From an uncultured Lactobacillus sp. (GTDB taxonomy: Bacteria; Bacillota; Bacilli; Lactobacillales; Lactobacillaceae), in the NCBI GenBank assembly GCA_937916845.1, contig CALFSK010000069.1, positions 62,001 through 126,000 of the forward strand: a stretch of DNA of 64,000 nucleotides, in the 5' to 3' direction. Under the pieces are notes generated by a model, which made no database searches, was not told where the DNA came from, and was given only the letters and a program-made list of their open reading frames with translations. Below are positions 707 through 62,255 of the stretch, piece after piece. A program made the translations under genes and the position numbers. How positions within the stretch are numbered: the stretch's first letter is position 1; the number at the start of each line of letters is the position of its first letter.

Positions 707-3077
707 TAGTAGTTTCCTCCTTAGTCTGGTGCCAAAAGTTGGCAATGGTGGCGCTGAGTTGCGGTAACGATTGAATTGTTTGGTAGTATTGCCAGTGCGA
801 TGGGAATAAATCGACGTACCGTTGACTCGCAAACCGCTGATCCAATAATAAAATAATCCCGGTATCTTGACTGCTACGAATTAGTCGACCGGCTGCCTGC
901 AAGACGTTATTCATGCCGGGAAGCTGGTAAGCGTAGGCAAATCCCTGACCGTTTTGATGGTCGTAGTAGTCTCGAATCAAGTTGGTTTCGGGATTTAAGC
1001 CGGGTAACCCGACACTGACAACGGCGACCCCAATCAACCGGTCCCCACGCAAATCGATTCCCTCTGAGAAGAGGCCACCGAGCACGCAAAAGCCGACGAG
1101 GGTGGTCGGATTATCCGCTTGGAATTGATCCAAAAAGGCTTGTCGGGCCGCCGCGTTCATGACGGATTCTTGGCTGGTCGTAGCAATGTCAGGATAAGTT
1201 TGTTCAAAGGCCGACTTGATCTGACTGAGATAGCCGTACGATGGAAAGAACACGAGATAATTGCCAGTTTTCCCAGTAACCAGTGCGTGTAAACTTTGAA
1301 TAATACGATCGACGTTACGCTCGCGTTCCCGGTAAGTCGTTTGGACGTACTGCGTTACTAAAATCGCCTGGTGCTTCGGCGGAAACGGGGAAGGTAATTG
1401 ATAAGCGAGACTGTTTGCTTCGCCACCTAAGACCCGTTGGTAGTACGCCATCGGGGACAGGGTCGCGGAGAACAGGACTGCGCCGGCACCGAGTTTCAGC
1501 GACCCGTCTAAGAAGTCACTAGGATCAAGGCAGAGTTCTTTAACCGTTAGATGGTGGCCATCTAAAACGAACCGGGTCTGATAGCTTCCATCGTACAAGT
1601 CCCCGATTTTAACGAAGGTTAAGCACGCAAAAAAGTAGTCACGGACGGCGTCTAAGAGTGGGGATGGTTTTTGTTGCGTCATCCAGTCAGTGACAAATTC
1701 GTTAAACGTCCGTAGGGTTCGCAAAAGGGGCTCCGGTGGGTCCGGCGTTACTTGTTCAGTGACACCGTCATCTAACAGGGACTGACTGAGTCGTGTAAAG
1801 CTGCGGCGCACTTTTTTGAGCGCTTGTTGTAAGTCGTCGCTTGGTTGCGTTTTGTCGGGCCGGGCCAGCTTTAATATGGAACCAATCGCTTGGTCGCTAA
1901 CGGCCGCTGAATACATATCCCGGGCCCGACTGACGAGGTTATGGGCTTCGTCAACGAGGAAAAAGTTGTCGTCGTCACCCTCGCTGAAGAACCGTTGTAA
2001 GTAAACGAGCGGGTCGAATAAGTAGTTATAGTCACAGATGACCACGTCACAAAAGAGTGAGGCGTCCAGTGAAAATTCAAAGGGGTCCACGGTATGTTTA
2101 CGAGCGTAGCGTTCAATCACTGGTCGTGTGAGCTGATTTTCGTGAGTGAGTAAGTCTTTAAGCGCTGGTTTTAAGCGGTCGTAGTAGCCAATCATAAACG
2201 GATTTTCTTCCGGGAGTAAATCCTGCTCTTCCGGAAAACGGATCTGGTCTTTGGCCGTCAAGGTGATACTCTTAATGACCAATCCGTCGTGACTCATGAG
2301 GTCGATAGCTTCCTCTGCCACGTGCCGGGTGCTTTGCTTCGCGGTGAGGTAGAAGAGGCGTTCAATTAAATCTTCACCGAGCGCTTTGACGGCCGGAAAG
2401 AGTGTCGAAATCGTTTTACCAGTTCCCGTCGGTGCTTCGACGAAGAGGCGTTTGTTAAGCCGAACGGTCTTGTAAACGGCCGCGGCGAGCTCGCGTTGTC
2501 CGGGTCGAAACGCGGGAAAAGGAAACGGGAGGTCGTTAATTGAGGCGTTGCGCTGCTTGCGAAGGTCCGCCCGTAACGTGAGCCAGTATTCGTATTCGGT
2601 AATGAGGTCTTTAAAGAACTGATCGAGTTCGGCGCGCCGCAGGACCTTTTGTTCTTTAGTCACTTTTTCGGTGCTGACTTGAAAATAGGTCAATTGTAAG
2701 GTGACCTTATCAAGCTCGGGATGTTCTTGTAATAATAGGTAGCCATAAACTTTGACCTGGCCCCAGTACAGGGTGCGGGTATTGTCGCTTAGGTCATCAT
2801 ACGCCTGATCGGACGTTTTGATTTCTTCAATCAGGGCGCCGTCGTCGTTTAACTGGATACCGTCTGCGCGGCCAGAAATGACGTAGTCGCTCCCGTTCAT
2901 CGTCACGGTCTTTTTAAGGTAGACTTCGCTGTCATAGTCTTCACCACGACTGCTTTGGAGCCGCCGATGAATTTTAGCCCCGTTTAAGGCGGTATTCTGA
3001 CTATTTTTAACTTCGTTTAGGTCGCCTTGACGAAGAACGAATTCAACGAGTTGACGAATACCAATTTTAGGTGCCAT
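696..3077 (-). CDS. XPD/DinG-type helicase with N-terminal RecB-like nuclease domain
   Basis: This 793-residue protein combines two modules. Residues about 60-120 carry a RecB/Cas4-like nuclease signature: D72, E85-I-K87 and Q106-x3-Y. Residues about 190-790 form a superfamily 2 helicase with Walker A APTGTGKT (215-222), DEAH box VDEAHN (375-380), a VLFSATLSP motif and a C-terminal QAAGRLIRS motif. It should unwind DNA 5' to 3' using ATP, probably in repair. The four cysteines that hold the Fe-S cluster in XPD and DinG relatives are absent: no cysteine lies between Walker A and residue 343, and the KDQIR and TVDPFEF segments have Arg and Asp where cysteine is usual. The nuclease-like gene downstream overlaps it by 11 bases. 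Confidence 0.88.
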   Translation of the reverse strand: MAPKIGIRQLVEFVLRQGDLNEVKNSQNTALNGAKIHRRLQSSRGEDYDSEVYLKKTVTMNGSDYVISGRADGIQLNDDGALIEEIKTSDQAYDDLSDNTRTLYWGQVKVYGYLLLQEHPELDKVTLQLTYFQVSTEKVTKEQKVLRRAELDQFFKDLITEYEYWLTLRADLRKQRNASINDLPFPFPAFRPGQRELAAAVYKTVRLNKRLFVEAPTGTGKTISTLFPAVKALGEDLIERLFYLTAKQSTRHVAEEAIDLMSHDGLVIKSITLTAKDQIRFPEEQDLLPEENPFMIGYYDRLKPALKDLLTHENQLTRPVIERYARKHTVDPFEFSLDASLFCDVVICDYNYLFDPLVYLQRFFSEGDDDNFFLVDEAHNLVSRARDMYSAAVSDQAIGSILKLARPDKTQPSDDLQQALKKVRRSFTRLSQSLLDDGVTEQVTPDPPEPLLRTLRTFNEFVTDWMTQQKPSPLLDAVRDYFFACLTFVKIGDLYDGSYQTRFVLDGHHLTVKELCLDPSDFLDGSLKLGAGAVLFSATLSPMAYYQRVLGGEANSLAYQLPSPFPPKHQAILVTQYVQTTYRERERNVDRIIQSLHALVTGKTGNYLVFFPSYGYLSQIKSAFEQTYPDIATTSQESVMNAAARQAFLDQFQADNPTTLVGFCVLGGLFSEGIDLRGDRLIGVAVVSVGLPGLNPETNLIRDYYDHQNGQGFAYAYQLPGMNNVLQAAGRLIRSSQDTGIILLLDQRFASQRYVDLFPSHWQYYQTIQSLPQLSATIANFWHQTKEETTNED

Positions 3078-5054: not shown

Positions 5055-5284
5055 GAAATCTAAAGTTTGAAAGTTAAATTTAGGGATTGATTACTGTTGT
5101 GTCAGTGTTTAGGCTAATATAAATTAACTACTTGTGAGTTAGTCCGGTTGCCACTGATTATCCAAATCACAATAGTAAGTCTGTTTTTAGCACACGAGGC
5201 TACCCGACGGAGCGGATAATTTAGGAATAACTATCACTACTGTTATGTTGTTAATAGCGATTTTAGACTTTTCAACCTTTAGCT
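5055..5284 (+). repeat. Collapsed copy of the large structured element
   Basis: This 230-bp stretch between ackA and the GNAT gene aligns with the flanks of the full element at 52926-53455. Shared blocks include CTACTTGT, ATTATCC-AATCA-AATAGTAA, TCTGTTTTTAGC, GGCTACCCGACGGAGC and GGAATAACTATCACTACTG. It lacks domain 1 completely and the 5' half of domain 2, keeping only AGCACAC-GAGGCTACCCGAC from the domain 2 stem. The ends still pair: CTAAAG-TTTGAAA near 5070 with TTTtCAA-CCTTTAG near 5280. It is read in the same orientation as the other copies and appears to be a deletion derivative. Confidence 0.75.
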
Positions 5285-12178: not shown

Positions 12179-12407
12179 AGTTTCCCCTCCTAGTTAAGTC
12201 AAGCTTGTCACTATTTTAGCATGGAACTGAAGGTTGAAAACTAAGGATGGTGTTTTGACATTGGTATAACAACGTTGATTCTCCCAGAAATAGTTCAGAT
12301 GATTGCTTCTAACCACCCATGGGTTCACCTGCCGTAGCGATGCGTCCCCAAAAATTGTAAACGTGTGGGGTTTCTTCCATACCAACCAATCTAAGCTAGA
12401 AAGTCAC

Positions 12408-20053: not shown

Positions 20054-20069
20054 GTATGTCTGTACTTGC

Positions 20070-20247
20070 TTCCGGCGGCTCGTAATGAATGCCGCTATGG
20101 GACCGGTGAAAGCCTGAGGAGCGGTCTTTCACCTCGCTTTAATGCTTTGCCCAACCCGCAAATCATTAAAGACGTCCGTGGTGTAAACGGGAAGGTTCAT
20201 CCCGTCAACACCACCTTCACGGCGGCATTCATTACGAGCCACCTGCA
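20070..20247 (+). ncRNA. Structured element, isolated domain 1 copy
   Basis: About 178 nt. The outer stem GGCTCGTAATGAATGCCG pairs with CGGCATTCATTACGAGCC. Inside are three hairpins: TGAAAG/CTTTCA around CCTGAGGAGCGGT, CTTTAATG-TTTGC with GCAAA-CATTAAAG, and GGTGT-GGGA with TCCC-ACACC. The same architecture occurs at 53004-53181 with different stem sequences but the same joints (TTCCGGC, GGGACCGG, GGAGCGGTCT, CCGTCCGTGG, CCACCTTCACG). Such covariation indicates a selected fold. No known family assigned. Confidence 0.75.
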
Positions 20248-20305
20248 GCCTGATTGAGCGTACTAAGGTGGGAAGTTTTTTCGAAAAGCGTAATTATATT
20301 AAATG

Positions 20306-51865: not shown

Positions 51866-51998
51866 ATTCTTTCCCTCCAATTAATTACGTTTTGTGATAG
51901 CTCTATTTTAGCATAACCGGAACCATGAATTCGATTGCATTTGCGTAGTGATTGACGTAGCATGACAGTAAGATTATGAAACGATGGAGGAACCAATC

Positions 51999-52913
51999 AT
52001 GAATCAACCACGCGTGATTTTAATCACGGGAGCGTCCTCGGGAATCGGTAAAGCCACGGCCTTGAAATTACAGGCCCAGGGAAATATCGTTTACGGGGCA
52101 GCGCGCCGAATCGAAAAAATGACCGACCTAGCCGCGGCCGGCGTACACGTGCTAAAAATTGATGTTACTGATGAAGCGACCTTAGTAGCTGCGGTAAAAA
52201 CGATTCAAGTGGAACAGGGACGCCTGGACGTGTTAATCAATAATGCGGGTTACGGCTCGTACGGCGCGCTTGAAGACGTACCGTTGTCTGAAGGCGAATA
52301 CCAGTTTAAGGTCAACGTCTTTGGTGTCATGCGGTTGACGCAACTTGTTTTGCCAATGATGCGGGCGCAACATCGTGGTCGGATTATCAACACATCATCG
52401 ATTGGTGGCAAAATCTATCAACCGCTAAGCGCCTGGTATATGGGGACTAAGCACGCCATCGAAGGAATGAGTGACTCCTTGCGGATGGAAGTCGCCCCGT
52501 TTGGGATTGATGTTATTTTAATTGAACCCGGTGGCATCAAGACCGAGTGGGCTGGGATTGCGGAAAAGAAACTCTTAGAAGTTTCTGGAGACACGGCATA
52601 CGGTCAACAAGCGGTTAAAGTTGGGGCAATGTTGTCGTTATTTGACCAGTTCGCATCCAATCCCGGCGTCATTGCTAAATTAATGGCGCGCGCCGTTAAC
52701 GACGTGAAGCCTAAGACGCGTTACCACGCGGGGATGGCTTCTGGCTTATCGCTAACCGCACGGAAATGGTTGACTGACCGTCAGTTCGACCGGGCCATGA
52801 ACCAGTCGGTTAATGGCGCGGCAAAACTAGCCAAAATTATTGGTCGTTCGGATCGGCGGGTCGGTAGCCGGCATTATCGTCACCATACTAAGGGAACCCC
52901 TGAACAAGAGTAG
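51999..52913 (+). CDS. Short-chain dehydrogenase/reductase
   Basis: 304 residues, classical SDR. The cofactor motif is TGASSGIG, followed by NNAGYGSYG and the catalytic S-x10-YMGTK (Y and K of YxxxK). The C-terminus is extended and basic (RSDRRVGSRHYRHH). Substrate unknown. GGAGGAACC precedes the ATG at 51999. There is no terminator before the structured element 13 bases after its stop, so that element may be part of its 3' end. Confidence 0.92.
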   Translation: MNQPRVILITGASSGIGKATALKLQAQGNIVYGAARRIEKMTDLAAAGVHVLKIDVTDEATLVAAVKTIQVEQGRLDVLINNAGYGSYGALEDVPLSEGEYQFKVNVFGVMRLTQLVLPMMRAQHRGRIINTSSIGGKIYQPLSAWYMGTKHAIEGMSDSLRMEVAPFGIDVILIEPGGIKTEWAGIAEKKLLEVSGDTAYGQQAVKVGAMLSLFDQFASNPGVIAKLMARAVNDVKPKTRYHAGMASGLSLTARKWLTDRQFDRAMNQSVNGAAKLAKIIGRSDRRVGSRHYRHHTKGTPEQE

Positions 52914-52925
52914 TCGTGACTGGGT

Positions 52926-53455
52926 CAATTGAAAGTTAAATTTAATGATTAAGTACTGGTGTATCAGTATCTAAACCAATAAAAATTAGCTACTTGTAAA
53001 CTATTCCGGCTGTCACTGATGACATACGGTCGTGGGACCGGCGCTAGCCTGGGGAGCGGTCTAGCCCCTCGCCTGGAACAGTTGTAAAGGTCGCAATTGT
53101 CCCGAACCGTCCGTGGCCTAAGACCGGAAATTCACCGGTCAAAAGCCACCTTCACGACCGATATCATCAGTGACAACCTCCGATTATCCCAATCAAAATA
53201 GTAAATCTGTTTTTAGCGCAGTCGGGTAGCCTTGGTGTGCTGTGTGGCAAGATTGGCAGATTTTTCTTATCTGCCAATCTTGCAGGGCGATTCAAAGACG
53301 TGGGTTATCGGCTTTGAATTGAGGGAGCAGACCGTACTTTGGCTGGGACCGTCCCTCATAGCACACCGGGGCTACCCGACGGAGCAGATAATTTAGGAAT
53401 AACTATCACTACTGTTACAGTGTTAATCGCAGTTTTAGACTTTTCAGCCTTTAGT
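52926..53455 (+). ncRNA. Large two-domain structured element, full copy
   Basis: About 530 nt without a gene. Domain 1 (53004-53181) has outer arms GGCTGTCACTGATGACAT with ATCATCAGTGACAACC, then GCTAG/CTAGC, GGAACAGTTG/CAATTGTCCC and GTGGC-ACCGG/CCGGT-GCCAC. Domain 2 (53220-53381) has arms GTCGGGTAGCC-GGTGTGCT with AGCACACC-GGCTACCCGAC, enclosing GCAAGATTGGCAGAT/ATCTGCCAATCTTGC, ATTCAAAG/CTTTGAAT and TGAGGGA/TCCCTCA. The ends also pair. Related to 5055-5284 and 20070-20247. It could be an ornate noncoding RNA; no known family is assigned. Confidence 0.78.
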
Positions 53456-53485
53456 TAGTTAATATTACTTAAATCGTACAACGAT

Positions 53486-53516
53486 CGCGTCGGGAATTTT
53501 TCCTGACGCTTTTTTA
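53486..53516 (+). terminator. Terminator downstream of the structured element
   Basis: GCGTCGGGAA pairs with TTCCTGACGC, followed by six T residues on the plus strand. It is the first plus-strand terminator after the SDR gene and structured element. Confidence 0.8.
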
Positions 53517-53530
53517 GTTTATGAATGGCC

Positions 53531-53980
53531 TCATAATGTAGCCAAAGTTTTCTGAAGCGCCGTCGTTGCTAAGGCTGTGTTCTTAGAGTGGTGGGCCGAA
53601 TGTTCTGTAAGCGTCAAGTCTGGAAAACGGTCAGTTAAAGCAATCAAAGTCTCCCACAATTGTTGGTTTGCAATCGTGTGATCATCGATTTTCCAACCAT
53701 TTTGCCGCCATACCACGTAAGTTTGCTGACTAAACGCGGTTAAAACGTCTCCGGCTGGTAGACTCACAATAATGGGGAGGTCGTGTCGTTTTAAGGCTTT
53801 GAGACTGCTAGTAAGTGCGGTTAGTAGAATGGCGTTACTGGTGAGCGTGTACTGGCCCGCTGTGAGTACTTTTTGTTGGTCACGATAAGTTAAGACGGCG
53901 GCCCAAGCTGCGGCTGGGACGCCTTTCGTTGGTGACTTGGTGACGACTTCGGTCACGAGGTAGATTTGAATCGTTGACAT
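53531..53980 (-). CDS. RNase HI-fold protein without catalytic residues
   Basis: 149 residues. The fold pattern of RNase HI is recognisable: WAAVLTYRDQQ, TLTSNAILLTALTSSLKAL (47-65), then WRQNGWKIDDHTIANQQLWE (91-110), which corresponds to the handle and following helix. The four acidic catalytic residues are missing: the DGS region reads YLVTEV, the MEL glutamate is replaced in AILL, TDS is replaced by SLPAGD, and the final aspartate region is HHSKNTALATTAL. It may bind RNA-DNA or be decaying. The start follows AAAGGTGATTC. Confidence 0.75.
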   Translation of the reverse strand: MSTIQIYLVTEVVTKSPTKGVPAAAWAAVLTYRDQQKVLTAGQYTLTSNAILLTALTSSLKALKRHDLPIIVSLPAGDVLTAFSQQTYVVWRQNGWKIDDHTIANQQLWETLIALTDRFPDLTLTEHSAHHSKNTALATTALQKTLATL

Positions 53981-61958: not shown

Positions 61959-62255
61959 CATTAAAAATAAATGAGATTAAACGTGAAGATCAGGAGAGTA
62001 AGTTTGGGCCTAGTTTCAGAGAGTCGTCGGTGTCTGCAAGGCGATACTAGTCCTAACCTGAAAGTAACCTGTGAACTGCTGATGCGACGATTGACGAGTG
62101 TCAGCTGGGGGTCCCCATTATTGGACAAACGTATCGCAACTTAAAGTTGCCGTACGTGATGAGGTATTTTGCGACTCGCAAAATACGAAGATAAGGTGGT
62201 ACCACGCGCAAGCGTCCTTACTGAATCCAATTGGATTCGGTAAGGACGCTTTTTT
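61959..62255 (+). promoter_or_regulatory. T-box riboswitch leader of brnQ
   Basis: The T-box sequence AAGGTGGTACCACGCG is at 62193-62208. The terminator (GCGTCCTTAC/GTAAGGACGC with inner AATCC/GGATT, then T6) follows at 62212-62255. Stem I is visible: ATCAGGAGAGTA opens it, CCTAGT/ACTAGT is its distal part and CTGCTGAT closes it. Uncharged tRNA binding should prevent termination and allow brnQ expression. The specifier codon is not settled; GUA at 62064-62066 is one candidate. Branched-chain amino acid specificity is inferred from the gene. Confidence 0.9.

Follow-up and report, generated by a model that had tools for sequence, protein, structure and literature searches.

The window, the whole 64,000-nucleotide stretch of DNA analysed, contains a structured intergenic element between two convergent ORFs of the ORF list. 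The upstream ORF, 51984-52913 (+), encodes a protein that we take, from its sequence, to be a short-chain dehydrogenase, and the downstream ORF occupies 53531-53980 (−). An earlier note had described the intervening region as gene-free and as a likely two-domain noncoding RNA extending from 52926 to 53455. The region is gene-free: the sole listed ORF inside it (53232-53396, 54 amino acids, TTG start) is taken as a chance frame. Alignment of the longest copies of the element places its start at 52928-52929 and its end at 53451-53465, within a few bases of the limits first proposed. Many other copies are shorter, and the sequence flanking the repeat varies from copy to copy. The element has the following parts.

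52922..53454, no strand assigned: whole repeat (MITE copy), with an eroded inverted repeat at the left, domains 1 and 2 set off by three spacers, and an inverted repeat at the right
52922..52935, plus strand: left terminal inverted repeat, eroded; family consensus CTAAAGGTTGAAAG, other copies AACTAAAGGTTGAAAGTT
53003..53190, minus strand (conserved strand): domain 1, four-way-junction motif, outer arms 53008-53025/53161-53178
53205..53392, plus strand (conserved strand): domain 2, same motif as domain 1, outer arms 53216-53247/53354-53385
53247..53283, plus strand: P4 hairpin of domain 2, perfect 15-bp arm 53247-53261/53269-53283
53289..53321, plus strand: P3 hairpin of domain 2, tip AAGAC...GGCTT
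53329..53344, plus strand: P2 tip of domain 2, AGACCGTACTTTGGCT; mostly AGACCGNNCNNNGGCT in the family
53441..53454, minus strand: right terminal inverted repeat, 2 mismatches to CTAAAGGTTGAAAG

The fold of 52914-53520 has an energy of −238.3 kcal/mol on the plus strand (z −12.2) and −245.3 kcal/mol on the minus strand (z −15.7), and 0 of 20 shuffled sequences folded as well on either strand. The fold and pairing arms that the earlier note claimed, including the two pairs of outer arms and the perfect 15-bp arm of P4, were located at the positions listed above. Domain 1 folds at −98.2 on the minus strand and −85.3 on the plus strand, and domain 2 folds at −102.9 on the plus strand and −91.0 on the minus strand. 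The plus-strand terminator proposed to lie nearby was found as a single terminator-like site at 53487-53509, outside the repeat; chance alone would give 0.8 such sites over the stretch scanned. A promoter search of the spacer gave one match, at chance level. None of 4227 Rfam models reached its gathering threshold over the element; these models, of release 15, presumably include ROOL, GOLLD, raiA, OLE and HEARO, which the earlier note had singled out. Matches to the element at E up to 10, the best of them to mir-15 (5e-4, on a long hairpin), were judged to be chance. The only Rfam match at threshold within the window is a T-box leader (RF00230) at 61977-62222 (+) with 106.8 bits.

The element is one copy of a high-copy repeat. 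Its DNA matched the source genome (3.0 Mb, 76 contigs) 46 times at 74-100% identity, some of the matches being pieces of one element. A covariance model, R1, was built from 67 domain-2-type sequences and no domain-1-type sequence, and returned at least 134 motif matches in the source genome (150 candidates scored). Counted over 100 collected loci, the source genome contains 102 distinct elements with 165 motifs, and 39 of the 102 have a single recognised motif. By arithmetic, 102 elements of ~0.45 kb make up ~1.5% of the 3.0 Mb. The DNA query matched 11 of 100 genomes, the source genome included, all in one genus, and R1 matched 19 of the 21 genomes of the genus, again including the source. 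The earlier note had named a strong match to a known repeat as a result that would refute it; the stretch is a repeat, and no description of it was found in the literature covered, subscription papers lying outside that coverage. A phage or plasmid origin was rejected, similar DNA being absent from the phage and plasmid collections searched. The exact core pattern is absent from viral contigs, which is weak evidence because the pattern was exact. Two further occurrences lie in the window.

5058..5284, no strand assigned: second window copy (L104), an internally deleted derivative of 227 bp with both inverted repeats and the 7-bp target duplication CTGAAAT
20056..20262, minus strand: third window occurrence, a solitary motif, with an R1 match at 20088-20229 minus (60 bits, E 7e-15)

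The solitary motif folds at −106.6, against −97.8 for its opposite strand. Beside it there is no second motif and no inverted-repeat pattern within 2 mismatches, and it could be an immobile, host-kept form of the RNA. A lone inverted-repeat-like 14-mer at 12227-12240 (+), with 2 mismatches and without a partner end, may be a remnant or a chance occurrence.

Full copies of the repeat begin with AACTAAAGGTTGAAAG and end with CTTTCAACCTTTAGTT or close variants. The end 15-mer occurs, at up to 2 mismatches, at 73 places in the source genome versus 16 for the reversed control, and the exact end 14-mer is present in 12 of the 21 genus genomes versus 0 for the control. Target duplications were scored in the source genome on 15 copies with both ends, two nested copies of 17 candidates having been left out. 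The score was 65 versus a shuffled mean of 10.6 and maximum of 49; the flanks repeat 5-8 bp without mismatch in 8 copies and with mismatches in 4, and 3 have no duplication. A second set from relatives comprised 15 MITE copies, two of them shortened, plus one insertion sequence; the L187 pair, whose ends carry 2 mismatches, was left out. These 16 elements scored 112 versus a shuffled mean of 17.6 and maximum of 61, with 13 exact duplications of 7-9 bp, one of 7/8, 5 bp for the insertion sequence and none for L200. The window copy has no recognisable target duplication, and at its left end the inner half of the inverted repeat alone is recognisable, the pattern being absent at up to 2 mismatches. 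No clean empty site was obtained for the window position. The site of the window element in L. xiangfangensis (L229) holds ~385 bp of other DNA with a 101-amino-acid ORF (244-549), and one of the two sites is replaced. In genomes G018 and G007, several contigs begin or stop at the inverted repeat; an element with these ends, present in many copies, may have broken the assembly there.

The same ends bound an insertion sequence of 1565 bp (L186) in G007 that encodes one DDE transposase of 451 amino acids. This transposase matches the NCBIfam model NF049925 (IS4) with 481.6 bits, above the cut-off of 250. The ends CTAAAGGTTGAAAG...CTTTCAACCTTTAG are exact both on this insertion sequence and on full-length copies of the repeat in G014 (535-556 bp). 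NF049925 matches in 5 of the 21 genus genomes and exceeds the cut-off in 4; the transposase frames are long and uninterrupted in G007 and G020 and in pieces in G019, G010 and G017. The same ends, with 0-1 mismatch each, surround the transposase matches of G007, G019, G020 (C1), G010 and G017 and are absent from L211, the second transposase place in G020. By eye, the MITE and the insertion sequence have little in common beyond the ends. No transposase matching NF049925 was found in the source genome, and an autonomous element there was rejected, both for this reason and because inspection of the 73 places by eye revealed no two inverted repeats separated by 0.9-3 kb. This result counts against current mobility of the element in the source genome. 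With IS-like inverted ends, duplications mostly of 7-9 bp, many copies and no transposase inside, the repeat is a MITE.

The placement of the repeat relative to genes was determined for the 99 source-genome elements with both neighbours visible, 3 more being incomplete. The neighbouring genes are convergent for 51 elements, same-strand for 40 and divergent for 8, versus 11, 39 and 12 among all 62 gene pairs of the window. Another baseline, gene pairs adjoining the elements (2 of 73 convergent), is biased by design and the window baseline is fairer; both rest on a simple ORF caller. Four source-genome elements overlap an ORF. The elements prefer the 3' regions of genes. Many copies lie, by eye, behind a T-rich terminator-like tail. 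The solitary motif at 20056-20262, which has a long, nearly perfect outer stem, stands directly behind a terminator-like hairpin, also by eye.

On its minus strand, domain 1 follows the plan that domain 2 shows on the plus strand: P1, P4, a short GGGG/CCCC-like junction helix, P3, P2 and P1. Their P2 tip (AGACCGNNCNNNGGCT) and P3 tip (AAGAC...GGCTT) are alike, and the P2 tip is among the best conserved segments in the alignment of 67 sequences. R1 matches domain 2 at 53233-53368 on the plus strand with 141.9 bits, this sequence itself being in the R1 training set. Numerous loci also give a domain-1 match on the other strand, with E from 4e-9 (L034) to 3e-3; in the window this match lies at 53024-53164 on the minus strand and has E 6e-4. 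Because the fold is nearly palindromic, R1 matches domain 2 in antisense too (E 6e-5 to 1e-3); therefore the match to domain 1 of the window proves little alone, and only stronger domain-1 matches count. The domains are homologous, a conclusion that rests on the stronger matches in relatives together with the common plan and the tips.

The two motifs are arranged head-to-head, with their 5' ends facing, in 61 of the 63 two-motif elements of the source genome; the others are one minus-minus and one plus-plus. All 30 pairs in two further sets from 44 sources are head-to-head, 26 of them in other genera, and the remaining matches are unpaired. A further set has four head-to-head loci, and two others in it, L327 and L321, have same-strand neighbours, as do L047 and L037 elsewhere. 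L321, from an f5 genome, carries three same-strand motif copies within 1 kb at 1157-2155 (+), unlike the head-to-head rule.

Covariation was evaluated on alignment A4, which consists of 107 R1 matches with E up to 1e-5 from 68 loci searched, aligned to R1. A fuller structure of 47 pairs was derived and counted because the automatic structure of alignment A1 missed P2. On A4, 91.1% of 4820 cells are paired, against 35.5-40.6% for slid partners, and covariation is 0.580 versus 0.195 for shuffled and 0.061-0.111 for slid pairs. Changes on both sides are seen in 41 of the 47 pairs, with family-wide coverage of P4 (helices 2-5, 14 of 14 pairs) and P3 (helix 7, 12 of 12) and in 6 of 8 pairs of P2 (helix 8), counts that, like the strand counts below, are inflated by kinship, the copies having common ancestry and the events not being independent. 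A4 is fitted to R1 and leans towards the R1 helices, P2 excepted; P2 pairing is not imposed by the fit because R1 lacks P2. When these 107 sequences were aligned by MAFFT on sequence alone, a similar structure emerged, with 184 G-U and 103 A-C combinations in pairs common to the folds of both strands.

An A-C mismatch in the displayed orientation is a G-U pair on the other strand, and this distinguishes the two strands. In the first sets analysed, A-C outnumbers G-U in the displayed orientation over all minus-fold pairs (351:122 for domain 1, 295:82 for domain 2) and in the pairs common to both folds (167:118 and 160:80, respectively). The strand other than the displayed one folds better in 70 of 73 domain-1 copies and 66 of 68 domain-2 copies. 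In A4, the functional strand folds better in 90 of 107 sequences and worse in 16, a weaker result because the strand was chosen by the model. Wobble pairs and fold energy mark the minus strand as selected for domain 1 and the plus strand for domain 2. The structure reported by the earlier note stands, and its account lacked the high repetition, the relation of the domains as inverted copies and their conservation on opposite strands.

Within the family, taken from the genus to be Lactobacillaceae, R1 has matches in 20 of 151 genomes, spread over 8 of 40 genera. R2 matches 29 of 395 genomes of the order, in 8 of 80 genera and including families f4 and f5, and 1 of 398 genomes of the phylum, which is the source genome; 8-21 candidates were scored per genome in these large searches. 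In genera g16 and g25 the motif pair is kept, and copies are alike only as far as the outer end of P1. CTAAAGG ends, at up to 3 mismatches, are absent from 19 loci of g16, g25 and other genera save for three isolated weak matches. Inverted repeats of at least 10 bp around the pair were found in 1 of 13 elements of other genera, ~21 bp off the motif, and this one is probably part of P1. The MITE reading is limited to Lactiplantibacillus because the CTAAAGG ends are absent in other genera. Some g25 copies have common flanks across species (L239, L242 and L250; L241 and L252). Since the flanks are alike in different species, these copies are at one and the same place, and they suggest long retention. 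Five f4 genomes, taken as streptococci, have one match each. Motif copies at ~2000-2150 lie between what we read from the proteins as purD- and purE-like genes (L316-L318) and before a presumed purF-like gene (L319), suggesting fixed sites in f4.

All 8 f4/f5 loci scanned match part of the Rfam model SSRC8_2, with E from 1e-10 to 3.5e-4 and 27.9-48.5 bits against a cut-off of 72. With E relaxed to 10, the stretch in the window gave no match to the model; 17 loci of family f1 gave none either. At threshold, the only Rfam match in the relatives is RNase P beside a motif, and another scan (E up to 0.05) returned only T-box.

The best reading of these sequence comparisons is that an RNA motif of Lactobacillales has probably been spread as MITE cargo. 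We consider it probable that the repeat is a non-autonomous MITE of an IS4-family insertion sequence, holding a conserved motif of ~140-180 nt twice, in diverged copies inverted to each other, and that this motif acts as RNA. The preference for wobble pairs on one of the strands points to such a function as RNA. The bias of G-U over A-C is bound to one strand per motif, and this argues against a REPIN-like element whose inverted structured halves act as single-stranded DNA, in replication, transposition or protein recognition, with RNA unneeded; but G-T wobble also occurs in single-stranded DNA. The paired inverted arrangement with a variable spacer fits such an element, as does the loss of homology just outside P1 in g16 and g25, a pattern to be expected if the folded halves themselves formed the ends. 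Against it stand the ordinary inverted repeats, 7-9-bp duplications and DDE transposase in Lactiplantibacillus, and the transcription of the streptococcal relative, and we regard it as unlikely.

The pairing might instead be a by-product, maintained in an inverted-duplication MITE by hairpin-templated quasi-palindrome correction with no functional selection. In favour of this, the element is made of two halves related by inversion, and hairpin-templated correction can produce apparent compensatory changes. Correction of this kind ought to be strand-symmetric and to create no strand bias, and it leaves both the conserved tip AGACCGNNCNNNGGCT and a plan kept across genera and families unexplained; this account is improbable. 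A single long two-domain RNA of the ROOL/GOLLD class, which the size, stability and intergenic place with a terminator-like site behind had favoured, is very hard to sustain when the domains are conserved on opposite strands, 39 of 102 elements have a single motif, transposon ends are present and an Rfam match is absent. Any one transcript would hold just one of the domains in sense, the conserved strands being opposite. The label of uncharacterised noncoding RNA holds for a structured element with RNA-type covariation and no Rfam match at threshold, but not for one two-domain transcript of ~590 nt, a proposal undone by the opposite conserved strands and by the finding of a MITE with ~100 relatives in the genome.

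Under the preferred reading of an RNA motif carried by a MITE, the transposase would move the element through its ends. The elements would lie mostly behind genes as 3'-UTR cargo, and because they prefer 3' regions the motif would land in 3' UTRs or in transcripts that pass weak terminators. With the head-to-head layout, a host transcript entering from either side would carry one sense and one antisense motif, which would make the orientation of insertion irrelevant. As a guess, the motif in its folded state, which bears two AGAC...GGCU-type tips, might bind a host factor or change the decay or ending of the transcript; conservation of these tips hints at a ligand, either protein or RNA. A more specific version is possible but somewhat doubtful: a four-way-junction regulatory RNA akin to SSRC8 would be the transposon cargo, and its head-to-head pairs would yield one functional RNA by read-through in either orientation. 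If true, ~100 or more copies would put one and the same RNA module into 3' regions throughout the genome, forming a mobile, orientation-proof RNA regulon. The repeat appears to be a large family undescribed within the literature searched, in a genus of food bacteria. Unlike that of an ordinary MITE, its interior is under strong structural selection, and it is present without these ends in other genera. A mobile element would be tied to a transcribed, unexplained streptococcal sRNA, ~100 natural replicates per genome would be available for study of the function of the RNA, and the question of whether bacterial MITEs spread functional RNA modules is opened to direct test.

Among known systems, the f4/f5 motif resembles RF02616 (SSRC8_2, Streptococcus sRNA 8), which it matches at model positions 140-235, mostly 145-210. 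Both have two hairpins with AGACC..GGCU-like tips followed by CCGU, and they differ in that the match covers just a portion of the 281-position model and scores below the cut-off of 72. By name alone, we take SSRC8_2 of Rfam to be the SSRC8 of the literature. SSRC8 is an sRNA of S. pyogenes that was detected by Northern blot and had its ends mapped by RACE (PMC3675131); in the literature covered, it is connected neither with a MITE nor with inverted pairs nor with a high copy number.

REPINs have a layout of inverted paired units and a RAYT (TnpA-REP) partner. The repeat is like them in having inverted pairs of structured units in intergenic places (61 of 63 pairs), a resemblance of layout only. 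REP sequences are palindromes of 20-40 bp (PMC3733652), and the unit here is a four-way junction of ~140-180 nt whose presumed partner is a DDE transposase, not RAYT. The bcr1 repeat of the B. cereus group is interspersed and mobile, with up to 130 copies and a predicted common structure (PMC6542083, PMC2267715). The present repeat is likewise interspersed, mobile, structured and in many copies, as are other repeats of that group; bcr1-type repeats are described in these papers as 100-400 bp long and as using a TTTAT-linked site-specific mechanism, and are not described there with the two-motif inverted layout. Like MITEs of the IS4 family, the repeat shares its ends with an IS4-family element, makes duplications mostly of 7-9 bp and is gene-free. 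Unlike them, its interior is a conserved RNA-like motif pair rather than a shortened insertion sequence, and the motifs occur elsewhere without the ends.
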